Shown: positions 13,753-29,934 of the stretch, in pieces | Layout of the letters: the number at the start of each line of letters is the position of its first letter | Position numbering within the stretch: position 1 is the stretch's first letter | Assembly: GCF_000092245.1 (NCBI RefSeq) | Contig: NC_014166.1 | Coordinates: forward strand, 2,046,001-2,110,000 | DNA length: 64,000 nt | Direction of reading: 5' to 3' | From: Arcobacter nitrofigilis DSM 7299 | Lineage (GTDB): Bacteria > Campylobacterota > Campylobacteria > Campylobacterales > Arcobacteraceae | The notes under the pieces: generated by a model | Told to the model about the DNA's origin: nothing | The model's input: only the letters and a program-made list of their open reading frames with translations | Database searches by the model: none | Made by a program: the position numbers and the translations under genes

Positions 13753-15420
13753 TTAAAATGTCATACCAAGTTGTAACATAAATCTAGTACTATAATCATC
13801 TCTACTAGTAACTTTAGCAGCTCCAAGCTTATGTGATAAGTTAGTATTCATAAAAAATCTTTTATAAAAAGCACTATAACTTAGTCCAATATCTTGTAAA
13901 GTTCTACTTTTATCATTTGTGACATTTCTACTCATATATACTCTTCCCACATCGTAAAAAATACCAATTTTTGAATTTAACTCATTAAATGAAGGTAAAG
14001 TATAAGTTAACTCAGTACTATAAATGTAGCCATTTTCAGCACTCTCTTCTCCACTAGGATAAAATTTAACTCCATTTATTCCACCTAAACTCAAATCTTC
14101 ACTTCCATCTAGATTTTTATTTCCAAGAGCATATTGAAGTTGTAGTTTATTTTTCCAATTTATCTTCTCATTAAGTAAAGTATTATTTTCTAACTCAATA
14201 TTTATTTTTGAGAAGTTTCCATTTGTATTTGCACCTGCTTCATCATCTGCTTCATCAACTGAATTATTAAAATTCAATCTACCAAAAGAAAGTGAAGTAT
14301 CTATTTTTGTTTGTGAATATTTACCAAGAATAAGATGGTTTTTTGAATAATCAACTCCAAATTTAGAAACTACTGTATTCTTTTTTACATTTGATGAAGT
14401 AGCTCTAATCTCATCATTCATTTTATTATATGATGTTTTTAAGTATGTATTTAAATTCTCACCGTTTGAGCGAAGAACTGGATAAGTAAATAAAGCTACA
14501 AAACTATCAGCACTTCCTAAAGCATCAAGATTTTTATATTTGTCTCCTAACTCATAAGTAGTTTTAGAGTAACTTACTTCTCCCCTCAATCCGTTTTCAT
14601 ATATGGGAAAGCCATAACCTACTCTTCCATTTAATAAACCCATATTTTCAGAACTCAAAGCAGACAAAGAGATTTTATCGCCTATTTTAAAAGGAGAATT
14701 GATATCAACTCCTGCCATAAATCTGTATTTACCTGTATAATCTGAACCATAATTATCCCCAATAACATAACCATTATATGGTTCAGTGGCTTGTGTCCCT
14801 ATTATAAAATCACTAGAACCAACCTCTTTTCCAGCAGCAATTTTTGTACTACTTACTTTTACCCCAGGAGTATCATTGATTAAAAGCAATGCTCTTTGTA
14901 AGTCTTTTATAGCTATTGCTTCTTTGTTTTTTGCAGTATCAAGTTTGGCTTGCAAGATAGAATCTTTGACTAATGAACTATTTTCTAGTTTAAACTCTCC
15001 ATAGCTCCCTTCGATAATTGCTATTTTAAGTACTCCATCTTGTGCTTGTAAATCTTGAGTAGGTATATAAGCTCTTGCTACAAAATACCCCTCATCTCTA
15101 TATGCTTTTGTAATAAGAGCTACTATCTCTTGTATCTCTTTAAAGTTTAACTCTTTTGATTCATAAGGTTTTAAAATAGTTTGTAGCTTTTTGGTACCGA
15201 TTTGAGTATTTCCACTTATAGAATAACTTTTAATAAATACTTTTTTACCATCTTCAAAACTTTTTTTATACTCATCACTCTCTTGTTGTAAAGGAGGTAG
15301 AACCTCTTTTTTCTTTTCCATCTTTGGTGGTTTTACCTCATTTAAGAAGTCACCGATATTTGGTATAGGTGCTGAATACAGACTTAATGTTGTTGCTAAT
15401 AGTATTGATGTTTTTTTCAT
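13753..15420 (-). CDS. Two-partner secretion transporter, TpsB (ShlB/FhaC/HecB family)
   Basis: 555 residues. An N-terminal signal peptide is followed by a Pro/Lys/Glu-rich linker (to about residue 60), two POTRA domains (about 60-210; the first ends with GVLKIAIIEGSYG) and a C-terminal beta barrel ending in the outer-membrane signature LQLGMTF. It would export TpsA proteins across the outer membrane. The conserved loop-6 motif, usually VRAYP or VRGF, reads GVKFYPSGEESAENGY here, so the usual Arg is a Lys. Its gene begins 31 bases after tpsA1, as in a TPS operon, and there is no second tpsB in the window although there are two tpsA genes, so it may serve both. Confidence 0.9.
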   Translation of the reverse strand: MKKTSILLATTLSLYSAPIPNIGDFLNEVKPPKMEKKKEVLPPLQQESDEYKKSFEDGKKVFIKSYSISGNTQIGTKKLQTILKPYESKELNFKEIQEIVALITKAYRDEGYFVARAYIPTQDLQAQDGVLKIAIIEGSYGEFKLENSSLVKDSILQAKLDTAKNKEAIAIKDLQRALLLINDTPGVKVSSTKIAAGKEVGSSDFIIGTQATEPYNGYVIGDNYGSDYTGKYRFMAGVDINSPFKIGDKISLSALSSENMGLLNGRVGYGFPIYENGLRGEVSYSKTTYELGDKYKNLDALGSADSFVALFTYPVLRSNGENLNTYLKTSYNKMNDEIRATSSNVKKNTVVSKFGVDYSKNHLILGKYSQTKIDTSLSFGRLNFNNSVDEADDEAGANTNGNFSKINIELENNTLLNEKINWKNKLQLQYALGNKNLDGSEDLSLGGINGVKFYPSGEESAENGYIYSTELTYTLPSFNELNSKIGIFYDVGRVYMSRNVTNDKSRTLQDIGLSYSAFYKRFFMNTNLSHKLGAAKVTSRDDYSTRFMLQLGMTF

Positions 15421-18689: not shown

Positions 18690-18721
18690 ATTATATTTAG
18701 CTATCGTTATATTCACCGTTA
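18690..18721 (-). promoter_or_regulatory. Operator-promoter of tpsA1: TAACG-N7-TAACG-N9-TATAAT
   Basis: Minus strand: TAACG at 18721-18717, TAACG at 18709-18705 (12-bp period) and the -10 box TATAAT at 18695-18690. No -35 box is evident; two direct repeats just upstream of a -10 box are typical of OmpR-type activator sites. The same layout occurs at 24090-24121, 27269-27300 and 29210-29241. Most of the operator lies inside the final codons of the upstream TIGR03032 gene. Confidence 0.72.
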
Positions 18722-20148
18722 CTTTTTTCTTTTCTTAAAATTTCTAATGAATTCTTTGCTTTTTTATTATCAGGGTCAAGTTCAAGAATTTTTTTAAAGT
18801 TCTTTTCTGCTTTTTTAAAATCACCTTTTTTGTAGTAAATGAAGCCTAAAGATTCATAACTTTGTAATATTGAAGCATCATTTTTAATAACATTATAAAG
18901 TATCTCTTCAGCTTCATCATATCTGCCTAAGTCTCCCAAAGCTATCGCCATATTAAAAGTAGCTGGAAGGTAGTCACTTTGTATCTCTAAGGCTTTTTTA
19001 AAATAGATAATTGCTTCTTCCTTTTTATTTTCATTAAACAAATCTATCCCTTTTTCAAAGTGAGGAGCTGCTTGTTCTAGTTTCGTTTCTGGCATCTTTA
19101 TTTGCTCACAATCTTCAGGGGATATCATGTAGTTTTCTTTTGATTGTTCACTATCAAAATTTAACATCTCTACTTTTTTATGTGGAAGAACTGTTATAGC
19201 AAATACTTCATCAAGTCCACTTGTAAACTCTACAAATGAGATGATTTGTCCTGTTTTTATATTGACTATCCATACTCCACTGACCCTTTTAGGAAGTTTT
19301 GTGATTTCAAGCCCTGAAAAGGTTGCACTTTCTCGCACCTTTGAAACTCCAATAAAAGCAAAATCTCCAACTATATCAAGACCTCTTGTAAAACCTGGAA
19401 CTTTTGCTATTTGGGTAAGTCTTTTCTTTTTAAAATCAAAATGACTAATAGCTCCTTTTCCTGATTCTAAAATATACAGTGTATTTTCATGCCATCGAGG
19501 GGAATGAGGCATAGAAAGTCCTTCTATTAAAATTTCATTGGTTTTTATATCCATCAGTAATCCACCATTTGCCTTATTGGCTCTCCAGCCCAATGGTTCA
19601 TCAGTAAGTCCAAGCATTGTAACATACCTTGGTTCCCCATCTCTTGTACAAAAACCATTTAAATGGCATTTATCAACAGGTTGTAAAAGTGAGATGAAAT
19701 CTGGTTTCCAAATAGGTTTAAAACTATTATCAGGTTCTTTGATACAAAGGCAAGAGAATTTTGTATTGATAAAATAAAGTTGATCTTTGCAATACTCCAT
19801 CTCATGAATATCTATATCTCCCGTAAAGTGGATATTTTGTGGCATATAGCAGGCATCAAAATTACCTTCAATATTTTGTGCAACACCTGTGTAGTTGCTG
19901 AACTGATATATTCCATGCCCTAAACCAGCAAAGAGCTTTCCATCTTTTTTACACATCCCCATAGGTCTTGGAAACTCTTTATATCGTATATCAAATTGGT
20001 CATTTTCTTGACCTATTATCATTATTTTATTTGTTTGATAAGTTGAAAGTAAAATAGTTGTGTTAGTTTCTTTAAAAAATTTTACAATATTTTGTGAATA
20101 GGTAAAGTCTATTTTTTGTTGCATAATCTGTTTATCATTGTTATTCAT
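18697..20148 (-). CDS. TIGR03032-family protein with C-terminal TPR repeats
   Basis: 483 residues. Residues 1 to about 340 resemble the TIGR03032/DUF4915 family, a beta-propeller-like domain of unknown function (note PRPMGMCKKDGKLFAGLGHG, the HLNGFCTRDGEPRYVTMLG region and a WHENTLYILESGKG segment). From about 365 to the end there are three TPR units (for example YFKKALEIQSDYLPATFNMA). No signal peptide, so it is cytoplasmic. It overlaps cysC by four bases (ATGA), so the two are co-translated. The last residues KSNGEYNDS are encoded by the tpsA1 operator sequence and reappear at the end of the unrelated kinase at 27276. Function unknown; the context suggests a role in modifying or regulating the neighbouring exported proteins. 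Confidence 0.8.
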   Translation of the reverse strand: MNNNDKQIMQQKIDFTYSQNIVKFFKETNTTILLSTYQTNKIMIIGQENDQFDIRYKEFPRPMGMCKKDGKLFAGLGHGIYQFSNYTGVAQNIEGNFDACYMPQNIHFTGDIDIHEMEYCKDQLYFINTKFSCLCIKEPDNSFKPIWKPDFISLLQPVDKCHLNGFCTRDGEPRYVTMLGLTDEPLGWRANKANGGLLMDIKTNEILIEGLSMPHSPRWHENTLYILESGKGAISHFDFKKKRLTQIAKVPGFTRGLDIVGDFAFIGVSKVRESATFSGLEITKLPKRVSGVWIVNIKTGQIISFVEFTSGLDEVFAITVLPHKKVEMLNFDSEQSKENYMISPEDCEQIKMPETKLEQAAPHFEKGIDLFNENKKEEAIIYFKKALEIQSDYLPATFNMAIALGDLGRYDEAEEILYNVIKNDASILQSYESLGFIYYKKGDFKKAEKNFKKILELDPDNKKAKNSLEILRKEKSNGEYNDS

Positions 20149-20807
20149 TCTTTTAAATCCTTTAAATAATTGAATCTTTTTAAATAGCTAATCACTTCTT
20201 CACTGGCTTGTTCTATTGTTAACTCATTAGTTTTTAAGTGTATCTCTGAATTTATAGGTACTTCATAAGGACTATCTATCCCAGTAAAATCTTTAATCTT
20301 TCCCTCTTTAACTTTTTTATATAATCCCTTAGGATCCCTTTGTTCACATATTTCTAGTGAAGTATCTATAAAAATTTCTATAAATTCATCTTCTTTCACC
20401 AACTTTCTTGCCAATTCTCTATCTCTTTGAAAAGGAGAAATAAATGCAGTAAGTACAATACTTCCACTATCAACAAAAAGTTTTGCAACTTCACTTATTC
20501 TTCTAATATTTTCCGTTCTGTCTTTTTTACTAAAGCCTAAATCTCTATTTAATCCATGTCTTATATTATCACCATCAAGAAGATATGTTTTTATACCCAT
20601 TTTATAAAGCTTTACTTCAAGTACATTTGCAATTGTAGATTTACCACTTCCACTAAGTCCAGTAAACCACAATATACATGGCTTTTGAGAAAGTTGTTTA
20701 ACTCTATCTTCTTTTGTAATATGACTATCGTACCAGATTATATTATTTGTCATTAATTCTGATTCAAGTTGTTTTAAAGGTTTTATTTTTTGTTCACTAT
20801 TTTTCAA
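20145..20807 (-). CDS. cysC: Adenylylsulfate (APS) kinase
   Basis: 220 residues. The kinase core has the Walker A loop WFTGLSGSGKST (about residue 50), LLDGDNIRHGLNRDLGFS (APS-binding DGDN and RHGLN motifs), and the downstream FISPFQRDRE and RDPKGLY motifs, all canonical for CysC. It converts APS and ATP to PAPS, the sulfate donor for sulfotransferases or for sulfate reduction. No ATP sulfurylase or PAPS reductase gene lies nearby; instead it is embedded between a predicted exported hydrolase and the TIGR03032 protein in a surface-protein operon, so a role in sulfation is a reasonable inference. It overlaps both neighbours (11 and 4 bases). Confidence 0.93.
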   Translation of the reverse strand: MKNSEQKIKPLKQLESELMTNNIIWYDSHITKEDRVKQLSQKPCILWFTGLSGSGKSTIANVLEVKLYKMGIKTYLLDGDNIRHGLNRDLGFSKKDRTENIRRISEVAKLFVDSGSIVLTAFISPFQRDRELARKLVKEDEFIEIFIDTSLEICEQRDPKGLYKKVKEGKIKDFTGIDSPYEVPINSEIHLKTNELTIEQASEEVISYLKRFNYLKDLKE

Positions 20808-21624
20808 GAATACTATCCTTTAAAAATTCCTTATATGATTTTTCCCAACCTTTTGAATGGCTTGCATCATAAATTTTATATTTTATATTTGTTTTATTAT
20901 GAAATTTACTTTTATATGAGAAAAAAATCTCTTTAGGGATTATCCTATCATTTTTTCCTATGAGATGATACTGCTTTATATTCTCAAGTTTTGAAGTATA
21001 ATCAATGGGATTTAATGAACCATTAAGTGGATAAATATTATGAATATCCACCCATTTTGTAGGATTTAAATTCCCAGCTATTGTGATAAGTTTATTTATA
21101 TCATCTCGTTTTGTAGCTATAAGTGTAACTATAGCTCCGCCACCAGAATATCCAATAAGTGTAAAAGAAGTATTATCATATTTTAATTTGACATTATTAA
21201 GTACTTCATCATAACTTTGTATTACTATGTTGCTAAACCTATGACTTGTCCAGTATTTATTATCACAATTTTTTTTAGTAAGATATTGGCAAGGACGAGC
21301 AAGATATATTTTACAAGAAGAATTATCCATATTCATCAGTTTTAGTCCAAGAGGATTTATAGGTGTTGGATTTTTAGAAATTCTATTTCTACTTATCCAA
21401 GCTAAGCCATCCCCTTCTATGTAGACTTTTATATTTTTGCACTCTTTAATATTTGTTTGTAATGAAAAAATATCAAATTCTTTTGTACTGTATATTTGTT
21501 CTTTCAGATTATATTTATTTCCAAGAGATAAAGCAGTTGCTTTTCTCTCTTGAGGTGTTGGTACATTTTGTGAGCAACCTACGATAAAAAAAGTTAAAAA
21601 AAATAGATTTGTAAAAAGTTTCAT
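20797..21624 (-). CDS. Exported alpha/beta-hydrolase lipoprotein
   Basis: 275 residues. The N-terminus is a lipoprotein signal (FFLTFFIVGCSQ, Cys17). The serine nucleophile elbow GYSGGG appears at about residue 158, DRIIPKEI supplies a candidate acidic residue, and SHSKGW near the C-terminus a candidate catalytic His, giving an alpha/beta-hydrolase triad. A Cys-rich segment in the first half (CKIYLARPCQYLTKKNC) could form disulfides in the periplasm. Substrate unknown; esterase or lipase activity is likely. It begins 24 bases after the autotransporter gene and overlaps cysC, so it belongs to the same transcript. Confidence 0.8.
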   Translation of the reverse strand: MKLFTNLFFLTFFIVGCSQNVPTPQERKATALSLGNKYNLKEQIYSTKEFDIFSLQTNIKECKNIKVYIEGDGLAWISRNRISKNPTPINPLGLKLMNMDNSSCKIYLARPCQYLTKKNCDNKYWTSHRFSNIVIQSYDEVLNNVKLKYDNTSFTLIGYSGGGAIVTLIATKRDDINKLITIAGNLNPTKWVDIHNIYPLNGSLNPIDYTSKLENIKQYHLIGKNDRIIPKEIFFSYKSKFHNKTNIKYKIYDASHSKGWEKSYKEFLKDSILEK

Positions 21625-21648: not shown

Positions 21649-24036
21649 TTAAAACTTCAATACATACTTTGCTGAAAAGGTATTGTTTGTAAAATCACTT
21701 CCTTGACCTTGCCTATTGTAAGAAAAGTTAATATTTGAAGTGTCATTGATATCCATTTCATATCCAACTCCTAAGTCATAAGACCATCTTCCATTATCTA
21801 TTCCTGTTGTATCAAAGCTTACTCCTGTTGCACCTTGATAAGATGCTGTTACACTTTGTTGTCTATCATGTAAATTATATCCAATATTTACACTTCCAAC
21901 TATTCTTGAATCATTATTAAGTTTATAATTTGCAAGAGTTCCTACTCCTAAAAGTAGTTCAGTAGAGGTAAACTTTTTAATAGCAAGATTTAAAGCACCT
22001 GCTCCTGTTTCACTATATGATGGATTTGTAAAGTGTCTATAAGTTGTGCTTATCATTGGTTGTAAAAGCAAGTCATCATTGATTTTATAATCTCTTACTA
22101 GTTTTAAATCTAGTGATGCTGTTTTTGATGTATATTTAGATCTTGCAGTATCTCCTGTAAAAATACTTCTCTCACCATTCGTTTTTTGCCAAGAATAACC
22201 CACTTGATAAAGAAGATTTGTTTTTTCATCTAGTACAGGTACATTTCCATATACCAGTGTTGTAAATACATCTAAATCAGATTTTTGAGAAACATTATTC
22301 ACATCGACATTAGCATTAGTATAAAAAAATCCAAATCCAAGTGTTTGGTTTGGTTTATATTCTCCATCTATACCCACACCTATACCATGTGCTTTTAAAT
22401 CAAATCCATTTAATCCATCTTTATCATTTTGAGAACCAAATGACCCAAATGGTTTTATCCAAACAGATTTTTGGCTAAACATTTCATCCCCTGAATTTAA
22501 TCCACCCATAGTGATATTTTGCCTTTGGTCTACGATACCTGTTATTGTATTTGATATTTGTCCTACTGCACCTACGGTTGAACCTGCATTTTGTGGTGTA
22601 GTTGACTCTACTGCGTTGGCTACTTCTTTGTTTGTTGAAAGTTTATTAAGTGCTGTAAACACTTGTGACATTGCTGTATTTGTACCTGCATTTTGAATAG
22701 TTTGTAAGGCAGATGCTGCTGCTTTTGTTGTACTATTTCCTCCTCCTGTTGATGTTGCATTAAGAAGTGTTGTTCCTTCAACTACATTTAAATCTAGCGT
22801 TTCTCCATCTTTTACATATTCAAAATTTAAAAGAGCTGAATTATCTGTAACATTTAGTGTACCATCTAGTGTTAAACTATTGGATGCAGTTACAATATCA
22901 TCAAGCTTTTGTCCTATCAATAGTTCACTATTTGTAGAAGAACTCAATACATTGACATCTATTGTACTTCCATCTTCAAAGGTTGCATCGTCTGTACTTA
23001 ACTGAGAATAAGTTGTTGTTGAACCATCTGTGAAAAGACCTATTTGTAGTTTTCCTGTTTGTGTTTGAGTAAAGTCACTTATCTTAGCACTGTCAGTTCC
23101 TGTTGCATTATATGGCAAAGAGATAAGACCTTTATTTGTAAACTTTAGACCTTCTATTTGTATATTTCCATAGAGTTTTCCACTAGTATCATTAAGAGCA
23201 GTTGATGTAGAACTACTATCGAATAAAGATAAAGAATATGCGTTAGCATCTGCTTTACCGTTTATTGTTGCCATGATGGTTCCAGAATTTATGATAGAAC
23301 TTTCATATTTACTATCACTTTCAATACCAACATTCCTACTAGAAGTATCGACTGTTATACTTCCAGTATTTTCGATGCTACCATAATAGTTATTCGTATT
23401 ATAAATACCTGCTGCATATGTACCAGTTGCCGTGATAGTTCCAGAATTTACGATGTTACCATAATAGTTATCCATATTAGAAATACCTGATGCATATTTA
23501 CCAGTTGCCGTGATAGTTCCAGAATTTACGATGCTACCATAATTGTTATCCATATTAAAAATACCTGATGCATGTTTACCAGTTGCCGTGATAGTTCCAG
23601 AATTTTCGATGGTATCACTATTCTCATTAGTGTAAATACCCGTAGCATCTCCATTTCTTGATTTAGAGGTAATTCGTCCAGAGTTTAAGATATTACCTTC
23701 ATTTAATCCATCTACCTGAATAGCTGTAACATCAAGGTCTCTTTCTATCTCTATTATTCCTGCATTAGATATAAAGTGTTCTTCATTTATCTGCCCGCTA
23801 TCATTTGCTATAACTGCAAACTCTGTGTCATCTACAATTGTAATAGACCCAGTGGAGGTTATATCTATATCTGTAGTTGATAAATCATGCGACTGTGTTG
23901 TTGTAACAGCAGTAGATATTGTTGCAGCATCACTTAGGCTAATTACACTCCCTAACAATAAAGCACTTACTACTAGGCTTACTTTTCCACCTTTTAAAAT
24001 TCTAAATCTTGATTTATAATCAATACTATTTTTCAT
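21649..24036 (-). CDS. Classical (type Va) autotransporter
   Basis: 795 residues. The signal peptide (residues 1-37) carries the same FRILKGGKVSLVVSALL sequence as the TpsA proteins. The passenger (about 38-500) is rich in NSGTI-type beta-helix repeats, including three nearly identical 26-residue units. The C-terminal 270 residues are an autotransporter beta barrel (starts near QKSVWIKPFGSFGSQNDKDG, ends in the outer-membrane terminal signature SAKYVLKF). It would display or release its own passenger at the cell surface, probably as an adhesin. Its promoter is the shared operator cassette at 24090-24121, and a hydrolase, cysC and TIGR03032 gene follow closely. Confidence 0.9.
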   Translation of the reverse strand: MKNSIDYKSRFRILKGGKVSLVVSALLLGSVISLSDAATISTAVTTTQSHDLSTTDIDITSTGSITIVDDTEFAVIANDSGQINEEHFISNAGIIEIERDLDVTAIQVDGLNEGNILNSGRITSKSRNGDATGIYTNENSDTIENSGTITATGKHASGIFNMDNNYGSIVNSGTITATGKYASGISNMDNYYGNIVNSGTITATGTYAAGIYNTNNYYGSIENTGSITVDTSSRNVGIESDSKYESSIINSGTIMATINGKADANAYSLSLFDSSSTSTALNDTSGKLYGNIQIEGLKFTNKGLISLPYNATGTDSAKISDFTQTQTGKLQIGLFTDGSTTTYSQLSTDDATFEDGSTIDVNVLSSSTNSELLIGQKLDDIVTASNSLTLDGTLNVTDNSALLNFEYVKDGETLDLNVVEGTTLLNATSTGGGNSTTKAAASALQTIQNAGTNTAMSQVFTALNKLSTNKEVANAVESTTPQNAGSTVGAVGQISNTITGIVDQRQNITMGGLNSGDEMFSQKSVWIKPFGSFGSQNDKDGLNGFDLKAHGIGVGIDGEYKPNQTLGFGFFYTNANVDVNNVSQKSDLDVFTTLVYGNVPVLDEKTNLLYQVGYSWQKTNGERSIFTGDTARSKYTSKTASLDLKLVRDYKINDDLLLQPMISTTYRHFTNPSYSETGAGALNLAIKKFTSTELLLGVGTLANYKLNNDSRIVGSVNIGYNLHDRQQSVTASYQGATGVSFDTTGIDNGRWSYDLGVGYEMDINDTSNINFSYNRQGQGSDFTNNTFSAKYVLKF
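23376..23610 (-). repeat. 78-bp tandem repeat, about three units, in autotransporter passenger
   Basis: The string CCAGAATTT recurs at 23441, 23519 and 23597, exactly 78 bases apart, within units that are nearly identical over their length. Each unit encodes 26 residues beginning NSGTITATG. The period is a multiple of three, so unit gain or loss would preserve the frame and alter passenger length. Confidence 0.85.
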
Positions 24037-24089: not shown

Positions 24090-24121
24090 ATTATATTTAG
24101 CTTGCGTTACTTTCACTGTTA
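24090..24121 (-). promoter_or_regulatory. Operator-promoter of the autotransporter gene
   Basis: Minus strand: TAACA at 24121-24117 (one mismatch to TAACG), TAACG at 24109-24105, then TATAAT at 24095-24090, with the same N7 and N9 spacings as the tpsA and regulator promoters. It lies in the short gap between the tpsA2 stop and the autotransporter start. Confidence 0.68.
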
Positions 24122-27268: not shown

Positions 27269-27300
27269 ATTATATTTAGCTATCGTTATATTCACCGTTA
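27269..27300 (-). promoter_or_regulatory. Operator-promoter of tpsA2
   Basis: Minus strand: TAACG at 27300-27296, TAACG at 27288-27284, TATAAT at 27274-27269, identical in spacing to the tpsA1 promoter and identical in sequence over about 40 bases. It overlaps the last codons of the sensor kinase gene. Confidence 0.72.
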
Positions 27301-29157
27301 CTTTTTTGTATTTTATTTTTAAACCATAAAGAGATATGTGTTCCCTTATCAACTACTACTTGAAGGTTTCCTTCTAGTTGGTCAGTTGCAAGTGATTCTA
27401 CCATCATCTCTCCAAAATTTGCTTTTGTATTAGCACTTTTCCCTCTACCATTGTCTGAAACCTCTAATAAGGTTCCATTATCTACACTATTTAGAGAGAT
27501 TTTTATGATTCCTCCTTTTGAATCAAAAGCATGCTTTACAGCATTTGTAACTAACTCATTTACTATAAGACCACAATAAATAGCTTCTTCGGTATCAAGA
27601 AAAGAGTTTATGTCAAGTTCACATGTGATATTCTCAATTTCAAAGCTATCTTTTATGTTTTGTAAAACTTTTTCAAAATACTCTTTTGCATCAATTTTTA
27701 CAAGATTTTTTTGATTGTAAAGCATCTGGTGTACGATACTCATAGCATGGATTTTTCTCTCTACATCATAAAGTTTTTCTTGGATATGCTTATCATTGTT
27801 ATCATTGAGCTTAAGTGCATATAGTGAAGTGATAAATTGCATGTTGTTTTTAACTCGGTGATGTAGTTCTTTTAGCAGGAGTTCATTTTGTTTTAATTCG
27901 TTGTTTAACTCTTGAGTTCTGATGTTTACAATTTTTTCTAAACGGTTAGATTCATTTTGTTGTTGTATTAAAAGTGATTTAGTTAAATCATTTTTTTTCT
28001 TTTCAAGTGTTTTGATACGATATGCCAATGATATAGCAAATAAAATAACCTCTGCCATAATAAGAGTTTCAAAGGTATAAGTAAATACATACTCTTCAGG
28101 AATTAGTCCCAAAAATTTGAAAAATAGTGATAACCATGCTAAAAGAGCAAAACTCCAACCCAATAAGAAAAATTTTGCTTGAGGGTTTTTCTTATATAAA
28201 GCATAAAAACCAATCCATAAAAAATAGTATGGGGTAACAAACTGAAAAAGAATTACCTGTGGAACAGTAAATATATTAAAGATTTGTAAAACATAATAAA
28301 CAGGTATTATACAAATGATGGTTTTTAAAGATAAGTCAATTTTAGGATAAAGTTTTGTATTTAAGAAATATCGAATAAAAAGAGTCATAGTAAAAGTAAC
28401 AAAAACATTTGCATAAAAAAGATTAAAATATAAACTTTTTTTGACAAATTCAATATCATCCATAGGGAAAAAATAAAATCTTATATTTATAGAAAATTCA
28501 CTTTGTAAAAGGGTAGCAATAAGATATAAAAAATAATACAGATAAACTTTATCTCTTGTAAAAACAAACAAAAAGATATTATATAAAACAAGAGATAATA
28601 TCCCACCAAAAAAGAGTGCCCAAATTACTTGTTTAGCTGTATCTTCTTTACTGAATTCTTTTGGAGTATGAAGTATTGGTTTGAACCAAAGTGAAAGTTT
28701 TTGGTTTTTCACATGAAGATAATAATTTTGTGTACTATTTGGCTCAATAGTTGTAGAAACATTAAGTATAACACTACCATCAAATTTTCCAAGGCTATAA
28801 AATCCAGTGGTTTTTTTTTGATATTATTTTTTGGTTTTTCATTTCATAAAGCTCAATTTCTTCTAAAAAGATATTTTCGAAACTAATTTTTTTTTCTATT
28901 GTTTTTGATGTAGGATTTTTAAGTCGAAATTTTATCCATACACCTTCAGGAGCCAAAATACAATAATCAACAACTTTTTTATTTGTTGTAATAAATTTAT
29001 CATTTTTATTTAAAATAGTGTTTATGGTTTCGTGATTGCCTATATCATGGTATATTTTAGAGTTGGGAAGAAGGTCTATACTATTTGTAGTATTGACAAG
29101 AATAGTTGCTTGTAAATTTATATATAAAAAAACTAATAAAATAATAGGAATACGCAT
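27276..29157 (-). pseudogene. 7TMR-DISM histidine kinase, frameshifted in an A9 tract (phase-variable or pseudogene)
   Basis: Two frames make one kinase. The first (ATG 29157 to 28795) has a signal peptide and a 7TMR-DISM extracellular domain; the second (28712 to 27276) has seven membrane segments, a coiled coil, the HisKA_2-type phosphoacceptor motif LLKELHHRVKNN and an ATPase domain (NELVTNAVKHAF, DNGRG). They are out of register by one base. Removing one A from the nine-A run (28811-28819, T on the plus strand) joins them without any stop into a 626-residue protein: the sequence between then reads TTGFYSLGKFDGSV and continues into the second frame. It is divergent from an OmpR-type regulator at 29248, its likely partner. 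Could be a true phase-variable gene, a slippage-read gene or a sequencing error. Confidence 0.82.
28811..28819. repeat. Nine-base homopolymer (A9 on the coding strand) at the kinase frameshift
   Basis: Nine consecutive T on the plus strand, A on the kinase coding strand. With nine A the kinase terminates 12 codons later; with eight it is full length. The position is in the extracellular domain, about 120 codons from the start. Confidence 0.9.
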
Positions 29158-29209: not shown

Positions 29210-29241
29210 TAACGGTAAATATAACGCAGAAGTGTTAAAAT
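29210..29241 (+). promoter_or_regulatory. Operator-promoter of the response regulator (autoregulation site)
   Basis: Plus strand: TAACG at 29210-29214, TAACG at 29222-29226, -10 box TAAAAT at 29236-29241. The N7 and N9 spacings equal those before tpsA1, tpsA2 and the autotransporter. The predicted start of transcription coincides with the ATG at 29248, so the mRNA may be leaderless. Confidence 0.68.
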
Positions 29242-29247
29242 ACTTAC

Positions 29248-29934
29248 ATGAAAAAAATTAACATACTAATCATAGAAGATACAACTTTAACTGCACAAAA
29301 AATGAAAAGAACATTAGAATGGGCAGGATACCATGTAGTTGCTATTGCAAGTAGAAGCGAAACTGCTTTAGAAGCAATGTTTAAAGAGCATATTGATATT
29401 ATCATCGCAGATATCAATATCAAAGGTGAACTAAATGGTATCGAAACAGCAAAACTTATTCAAAAAAACTTCAATGTTCCAGTTATATTTTTAACATCAT
29501 ACCACGATGATACAACGCTAGCTGAAGCTTCTAGCGTCAACTTTACAGGATATATTGTAAAACCATATTTAGATGCCCATCTTCTTAGAGAAGTAAAACT
29601 AGCTTCTCTTCGTTTTGGACTCAATAATAAAATTGAGGCAATTAAACTTGATAATGATTATATTTATGATATACAAAATAAAGTTTTATTGAAAAATAAT
29701 AAAGAGATAACTCTGACAAAAAAAGAAGAACAATTTTTATATATACTAATACAAAATAAAAACTCTGTAATATCCAATGAATATGTAGATTTAACATTAT
29801 GGCATGACAATGCAACTTATGATGAAAATAGAAGACAATTACTTTTTAGACTAAGAAAAAAAGTACCAGAGTTAGATATTCAAACTATAAAAGGTGTAGG
29901 TTATACTTTAAAGATAAATACCCCTGATATATAG
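29248..29934 (+). CDS. OmpR-type response regulator of the surface-protein island
   Basis: 228 residues. Receiver domain 1-120 with acidic pocket ED at 10-11, phosphoacceptor Asp55 (IIIADINIKGE), Thr83 and Lys105 (YIVKPY). The C-terminal domain (about 135-228) is a winged helix of the OmpR/PhoB type, with LTKKEEQFLYILIQNKNSVI and the recognition-helix region ENRRQLLFRLRKKV, ending TIKGVGYTL. It should bind direct repeats such as TAACG-N7-TAACG and activate from just upstream of -10. The gene is divergent from its likely kinase partner and shares its operator motif with three surface-protein genes. Confidence 0.9.
   Translation: MKKINILIIEDTTLTAQKMKRTLEWAGYHVVAIASRSETALEAMFKEHIDIIIADINIKGELNGIETAKLIQKNFNVPVIFLTSYHDDTTLAEASSVNFTGYIVKPYLDAHLLREVKLASLRFGLNNKIEAIKLDNDYIYDIQNKVLLKNNKEITLTKKEEQFLYILIQNKNSVISNEYVDLTLWHDNATYDENRRQLLFRLRKKVPELDIQTIKGVGYTLKINTPDI

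Follow-up and report, generated by a model that had tools for sequence, protein, structure and literature searches.

Candidate operator-promoter sites of an OmpR-type response regulator at type V secretion genes of Arcobacter nitrofigilis

Direct-repeat operators of OmpR-type regulators

In Sulfurospirillum, tetrachloroethene respiration is controlled by the two-component system PceP/PceS (TCS2), whose OmpR-type regulator PceP binds to direct repeats lying across the −35 region and has been interpreted as an activator of its regulon (PMC7755780). The locus described here lies in a stretch of 64,000 nucleotides of the Arcobacter nitrofigilis DSM 7299 genome (the window), from the same phylum, and resembles this system in that an OmpR-type regulator stands beside a seven-transmembrane sensor kinase, direct repeats overlap the −35 region and the putative local regulon includes the regulator's own gene (PMC7755780). 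The PceP repeats, however, are CTATW in three copies with N6 gaps and an outer pair N17 apart, whereas the repeats here are TAACG with N7, and PceP serves respiration targets from a variable site position, in contrast to the surface secretion genes and fixed position found here (PMC7755780).

Three other OmpR-type regulators are comparable. HP1043/HsrA of Helicobacter pylori binds its own promoter, and its direct hexamer repeats take the place of the −35 box in front of a sigma80 −10 element; it differs in its TTTAAG-N5-TTTAAG site and in being an orphan and essential regulator (PMC5253667). MtrA of Corynebacterium glutamicum binds a direct repeat whose half-site, (A/G)TAACAAT, is close to the (A/G)TAACG found here, but it has 8-bp repeats with a 3-bp linker and belongs to another phylum, with another kinase and other targets (PMC3353115); the consensus in the paper on MtrA of M. 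tuberculosis is no clearer than that of C. glutamicum. The architecture I class II promoters of Salmonella PhoP carry a single, directly oriented repeat some 12 nt ahead of the −10 element, the PhoP box overlaps the −35 region, activation needs an exact distance and the phoP gene itself is a target, but the sequence is (T/G)GTTTA-N5-(T/G)GTTTA and PhoP uses five architectures, compared with essentially one here (PMC3335776).

The sites of HP1043 (PMC5253667), PhoP (PMC3335776) and C. glutamicum MtrA (PMC3353115) all have an 11-bp period, and a period of 10–11 bp, about one helical turn, is a common trait of OmpR/PhoB-type sites rather than a strict definition of the family. In contrast, every exact site in our set has a 12-bp period. 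The candidate regulon is new but of a known kind, its unusual points being the 12-bp period and the rigid layout. Its fixed 12-bp period offers an informative exception to the rule of 11 bp, or one turn, in the OmpR-type family. It also provides a concrete candidate operator for this two-component system, for which the literature searched holds none; we found no paper on the regulation of surface adhesins or exoproteins in Arcobacter-like bacteria. TAACTGA repeats of Beggiatoaceae (PMC4679880) were considered and had no link to the motif.

Four sites in one secretion gene cluster

The initial annotation of this DNA had described a single exact layout, TAACG-N7-TAACG-N9-TATAAT, at four genes. 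Coordinates, strands and the 7- and 9-base spacings proved correct at all four, but the sequence is perfect only at tpsA2 and tpsA1, whose sites are identical 32-mers; the other two each carry a variant element (Table 1). At up to three mismatches the window holds 6 matches against 0.86 expected, a number reached in none of 100 shuffles, and the layout is therefore well above chance. When 132 spacing combinations were tried in the window at no more than one mismatch, the 7/9 combination gave four matches and the other 131 together gave one. A genome-wide pattern search, which had been proposed as a check, returned at the same threshold only these four sites, all in this cluster, among 3,192,235 bases in one contig; two further places at 2 mismatches resemble background.

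Table 1. Candidate operator-promoter sites and surrounding genes in the window.
Feature	Coordinates	Strand	Remarks
Operator-promoter of response regulator	29210-29241	+	TAACG-N7-TAACG-N9-TAAAAT (−10 TAAAAT instead of TATAAT); same spacing and same 6-nt gap in 11/11 family orthologs and G415
Operator-promoter of tpsA2	27269-27300	-	Perfect match; overlaps 3′ end of kinase ORF
Operator-promoter of autotransporter gene	24090-24121	-	First half-site TAACA instead of TAACG; same variant in G105
Operator-promoter of tpsA1	18690-18721	-	Perfect match; 32-mer identical to tpsA2 site; overlaps 3′ end of DUF4915-TPR ORF
Response regulator P0001, receiver and OmpR-type winged helix, 228 aa, proposed binder	29248-29934	+	Pfam Response_reg 9e-21, Trans_reg_C 2.2e-09; PDB matches to PhoB-family regulators
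N-terminal fragment of partner histidine kinase, 7TMR-DISMED2 sensor domain	28795-29157	-	Frameshifted near 9-A tract
C-terminal part of partner histidine kinase (7TMR-DISM_7TM, HisKA_2, HATPase_c)	27276-28712	-	Single 619-649 aa ORF in orthologs
tpsA2, two-partner-secretion exoprotein (TPS domain, MBG, GLUG), 1025 aa	24137-27214	-	
Autotransporter, 795 aa, first gene of putative operon	21649-24036	-	Pfam Autotransporter 2.3e-42
Abhydrolase, APS-kinase-like and DUF4915-TPR genes, between autotransporter and tpsA1	18697-21624	-	Probably co-transcribed
tpsA1, two-partner-secretion exoprotein, 1061 aa	15452-18637	-	
tpsB, outer-membrane transporter for TpsA proteins (POTRA_2, ShlB), downstream of tpsA1	13753-15420	-	

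The regulator and kinase genes are divergent, and the kinase is followed on the minus strand by tpsA2, the autotransporter, the abhydrolase, APS kinase and DUF4915-TPR genes, tpsA1 and tpsB. Relative to six aligned orthologs, the kinase gene of the window has one extra base at the 9-A tract near 28804-28815 (minus strand, region 28795-28830), which splits it into two ORFs; the orthologs are intact. The frameshift could stem from phase variation, from a genuine mutation or from a mistake in the assembly. The tpsA2 and tpsA1 operators cover the last codons and the stop codon of the upstream ORFs (ends at 27276 and 18697), and through this overlap (27276-27300 and 18697-18721, minus strand) the kinase and DUF4915-TPR genes, which are unrelated, end in the same C-terminal peptide. 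This shared ending suggests that the promoter block was inserted or copied along with tpsA.

Pfam confirmed the annotated OmpR type of the regulator by finding both a receiver domain (PF00072, residues 6-116), in which the phospho-acceptor Asp aligns with that of PhoB, and a Trans_reg_C winged helix (PF00486, 37.7 bits against a cut-off of 26.2), and phmmer matched it to full-length PhoB-family and other OmpR-type regulators. CGTTA, the half-site on the other strand, resembles LytTR sites; binding of this type was dropped because the regulator has a Trans_reg_C and not a LytTR domain. The recognition-helix signature RRQ[LV] is present in every aligned motif-associated regulator, and was rejected as a discriminator since it also occurs in regulators of genomes without the motif (e.g. 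L038, L039).

Co-occurrence of the motif and the regulator among relatives

Of the 104 family genomes searched, 11 have an ortholog of the regulator (76–100% identity, E ≤ 4e-108), and a twelfth, G108, carries no more than a 42% relative. The exact pattern TAACG-N7-TAACG-N9-TANAAT occurs in the same 11 genomes, in 28 copies, and both motif and ortholog are absent from the remaining 93, whereas a reversed control pattern had 4 matches in the family and none in the 11 ortholog genomes. The Fisher p-value for this co-occurrence, about 4e-15, ignores phylogeny and is indicative only, the genomes not being independent. Moreover, part of the co-occurrence arises automatically: one of the sites is the promoter of the regulator itself, which is located within the same stretch of conserved DNA.

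This does not apply to copies on other contigs. Sites that are unlinked or differently embedded were found in G101, G103 and G104, and G010 and G027 have such sites with one mismatch. They include a site at a tpsA gene beside a 52% identical regulator (G101, contig C2), two divergent sites at an autotransporter and a kinase (G103, C6), a site at a further autotransporter (G103, C17) and, with one mismatch, a site at an inverse autotransporter (G027, C12); sites at an autotransporter and tpsA in G105 (C19) may lie on a separate contig of the same region. All 28 exact sites are immediately upstream of a gene, which encodes the regulator, a TpsA, an autotransporter, an inverse autotransporter, a PAS-HD protein or a related kinase. 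The targets recognized by Pfam are TpsA proteins, autotransporters, inverse autotransporters (IAT_beta) and a PAS-HD protein, and downstream of sites that deviate at one or two positions there are also Big_9 adhesin-like proteins. With about 0–5 exact copies per genome, the motif is rare enough to predict regulon members, including unlinked ones, from sequence in any genome that carries the regulator. G027 has a second, 51% identical regulator directly behind the first (L084, 15326-16009), with a promoter that contains TAACG and TAACA, apparently spaced at an 11-bp period, and a TATAAT located 8 nt upstream of the ATG.

One explanation for such a pattern is that there is no specific operator, and that a strong core promoter block was copied together with the surface-protein genes, the repeats being incidental. 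Part of the material fits this explanation. The three secretion-gene promoters of the window are 0.84–1.0 identical inside the site, the autotransporter block being 84% like the identical tpsA1 and tpsA2 32-mers and sharing their flanks, with a common AAAAAG...GCTAAATATAATACTTG block, and they are probably copies of one ancestral promoter. Because they share this longer block and probably one origin, the window contributes about two independent instances; relatives add several. In the INDEPENDENCE of sites, 28 of 35 join one cluster by spacer and near flank (single linkage at 60%), a cluster that is loose because the linkage level is close to the 99% null of 57%. However, as the initial annotation had claimed, the regulator promoter has only the motif in common with the others, the identity of the upstream 60 bp (0.27–0.33) being background for AT-rich DNA. 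At least three further groups of sites have unrelated spacers and flanks: the inverse-autotransporter sites of G010 and G027 (grouped with a G103 kinase site), the tpsAb site of G101 and the AT2/AT3 sites of G103; the Big420 site of G027 also falls outside the large cluster. In an alignment of 36 sites the half-sites and the −10 element are near-invariant while most spacer bases drift. Given also that the 93 relatives without the regulator lack the motif, we consider incidental copying very improbable.

When the search was widened to the order, 14 of 399 genomes had exact sites. In G415, from another family, a 50% identical regulator has the site in front of it, at a distance of 6 nt from the ATG. 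In each of five genomes outside the family (G242, G360, G252, G339 and G209), one exact site lies divergent to a kinase gene; the regulator paired with this kinase is 35–38% identical to P0001, with kinase and regulator domains checked by Pfam at one of these loci, that of G339. The genes adjoining the sites are tpsA-tpsB in G339, an autotransporter in G209, genes for Slam-type proteins and a TbpB-like lipoprotein in G242 (gene sizes in G360 match) and, in G252, a gene for a 1297-aa multidomain protein. This last protein (L145, 6263-10153), which combines methyltransferase, Fic and deaminase-like domains, is encoded downstream of an exact site that has a 36% identical regulator as its neighbour. 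G242 and G360 have other exact sites with no related kinase/regulator pair next to them; those at L140 6692-6723 and L141 6965-6996 have conserved surroundings and are followed by a gene for a ∼460-aa protein that matches TPR weakly. The single matches in G158 and G314 overlap ORFs and look like chance background. In two metagenome-assembled genomes labelled Sulfurimonas and Helicobacteraceae (L091, L092), a degenerate motif with the same N7 period precedes 52% identical regulators and also large adhesin- or RTX-type genes.

The five loci with 35–38% identical regulators, which have exact sites and no close ortholog of P0001, raise the possibility that the sites are bound by a different regulator, such as a paralogous response regulator or an unlinked factor, and suggest that more than one family member may read the motif; G103 has two such regulators. 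Against this, motif and ortholog coincide in 11 of 11 genomes and are jointly absent from 93 of 93 in the family, even though further OmpR-type response regulators, often dozens, are present in the relatives searched. We regard a different regulator as quite improbable, and conclude that, very probably, the motif is where this regulator itself binds and marks out a small, self-regulating set of surface-protein genes. It seems that the motif characterizes not one ortholog group but a broader subfamily of regulators. A broader proposal, which we make tentatively and with slightly more doubt than belief, is that a Campylobacterota-wide subfamily of paired 7TMR-DISM kinases and OmpR-type regulators may be dedicated to moving large surface proteins across the outer membrane (type Va, Vb, Ve and Slam) and may read one rigid operator-promoter code of 12-bp period, with a leaderless, self-activated regulator mRNA in the clade of the window.

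Promoter geometry and the proposed mode of control

If the −10 element is placed at −12 to −7, the repeats fall at −38 to −34 and −26 to −22 and overlap the −35 region. In a free-spacing search for TAACG/TAACG/TATAAT (gaps of 4–10 and 4–18) in the 11 ortholog genomes, 17 of 18 matches had the 7/9 spacing, and a repeat-to-−10 distance fixed in this way (N9) is the position expected of a class II activator. The initial annotation had also remarked on the lack of an obvious −35 box, which had to be rejected as evidence: such a lack is normal in this phylum, and sigma70 promoters of C. jejuni generally have no −35 box, about 89% of promoter regions showing a periodic AT pattern instead (PMC3656092), and its absence therefore does not in itself show dependence on an activator.

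We think it likely that the sites combine the binding site and core promoter of the OmpR-type regulator, with a dimer on the direct repeat, class II activation and autoregulation. A head-to-tail dimer of the (presumably phosphorylated) regulator would bind (A/G)TAACG-N6-(A/G)TAACG at a 12-bp period, cover about −38 to −22, where a −35 element would be, and touch RNA polymerase (sigma), activating as a class II factor in the manner of PhoB or PhoP. Its predicted targets are its own gene, through positive autoregulation and a leaderless mRNA, and the adjacent type V secretion genes, namely tpsA2, the autotransporter operon and tpsA1-tpsB; the neighbouring 7TMR-DISM/HisKA_2 kinase would be the presumed sensor. 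The sequence itself shows the sites, their spacing and genome-wide rarity, the perfect co-occurrence with the regulator and the recurrence at unlinked surface-protein genes, whereas binding, its dependence on phosphorylation, the direction of control and the transcription starts are inferred. The initial proposal of a candidate OmpR-type regulon with autoregulation gained support from the domain type of the regulator, from ortholog tracking in 104 genomes, from unlinked targets and from recurrence beside distant family members. Points against it are the 12-bp rather than 11-bp period, the partly trivial co-occurrence, the shared descent of the tpsA and autotransporter promoters, the sites of G242 and G360 that are not beside a related regulator, the likely chance matches of G158 and G314 and the frameshifted partner kinase.

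The main rival keeps the same regulator and the same sites but assumes repression: the repeats overlap the place where sigma contacts the −35 region, and the bound regulator would block RNA polymerase. The position of the sites agrees with this, and the promoters could be active without an activator, as the lack of a −35 box does not keep sigma70 promoters of C. jejuni from working (PMC3656092). However, steric blocking tolerates shifts, and the fixed distance to the −10 element is better suited to contact-dependent activation; displaced PhoP boxes give little or reduced expression (PMC3335776), and PceP, whose sites likewise overlap the −35 region, has been argued to be an activator (PMC7755780). 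Repression is in our judgement unlikely, and activation with positive autoregulation is preferred.

Positive autoregulation would act through a site that is conserved in the regulator's own promoter, as in autoregulated systems (11 family orthologs and G415; degenerate in L091 and L092). Between the −10 element of this promoter and the ATG at which the receiver domain begins lie 6 nt (window 29236-29250), and the gap is the same in G415 and in all 11 family orthologs (the orthologs with this gap being L079-L084, L102, L104, L107, L108 and L147). A transcript starting 7 nt after the −10 element would begin with the A of the ATG, and the regulator mRNA is therefore predicted to be leaderless; it appears to be so across genera. 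No Shine-Dalgarno sequence is visible upstream of the ATG in the sequences inspected, and many regulator promoters have a TG one base before the −10 element (extended −10).

The secretion genes of the window have 5′ leaders. RNAalifold on 14 leaders gave no consensus pairs with an automatic MAFFT alignment of poor register. When folded singly, each of the minus-strand leaders of tpsA2 (27262-27215), the autotransporter gene (24083-24037) and tpsA1 (18683-18638) forms a hairpin just past the predicted start and before the ribosome-binding site, with stems that differ in sequence.
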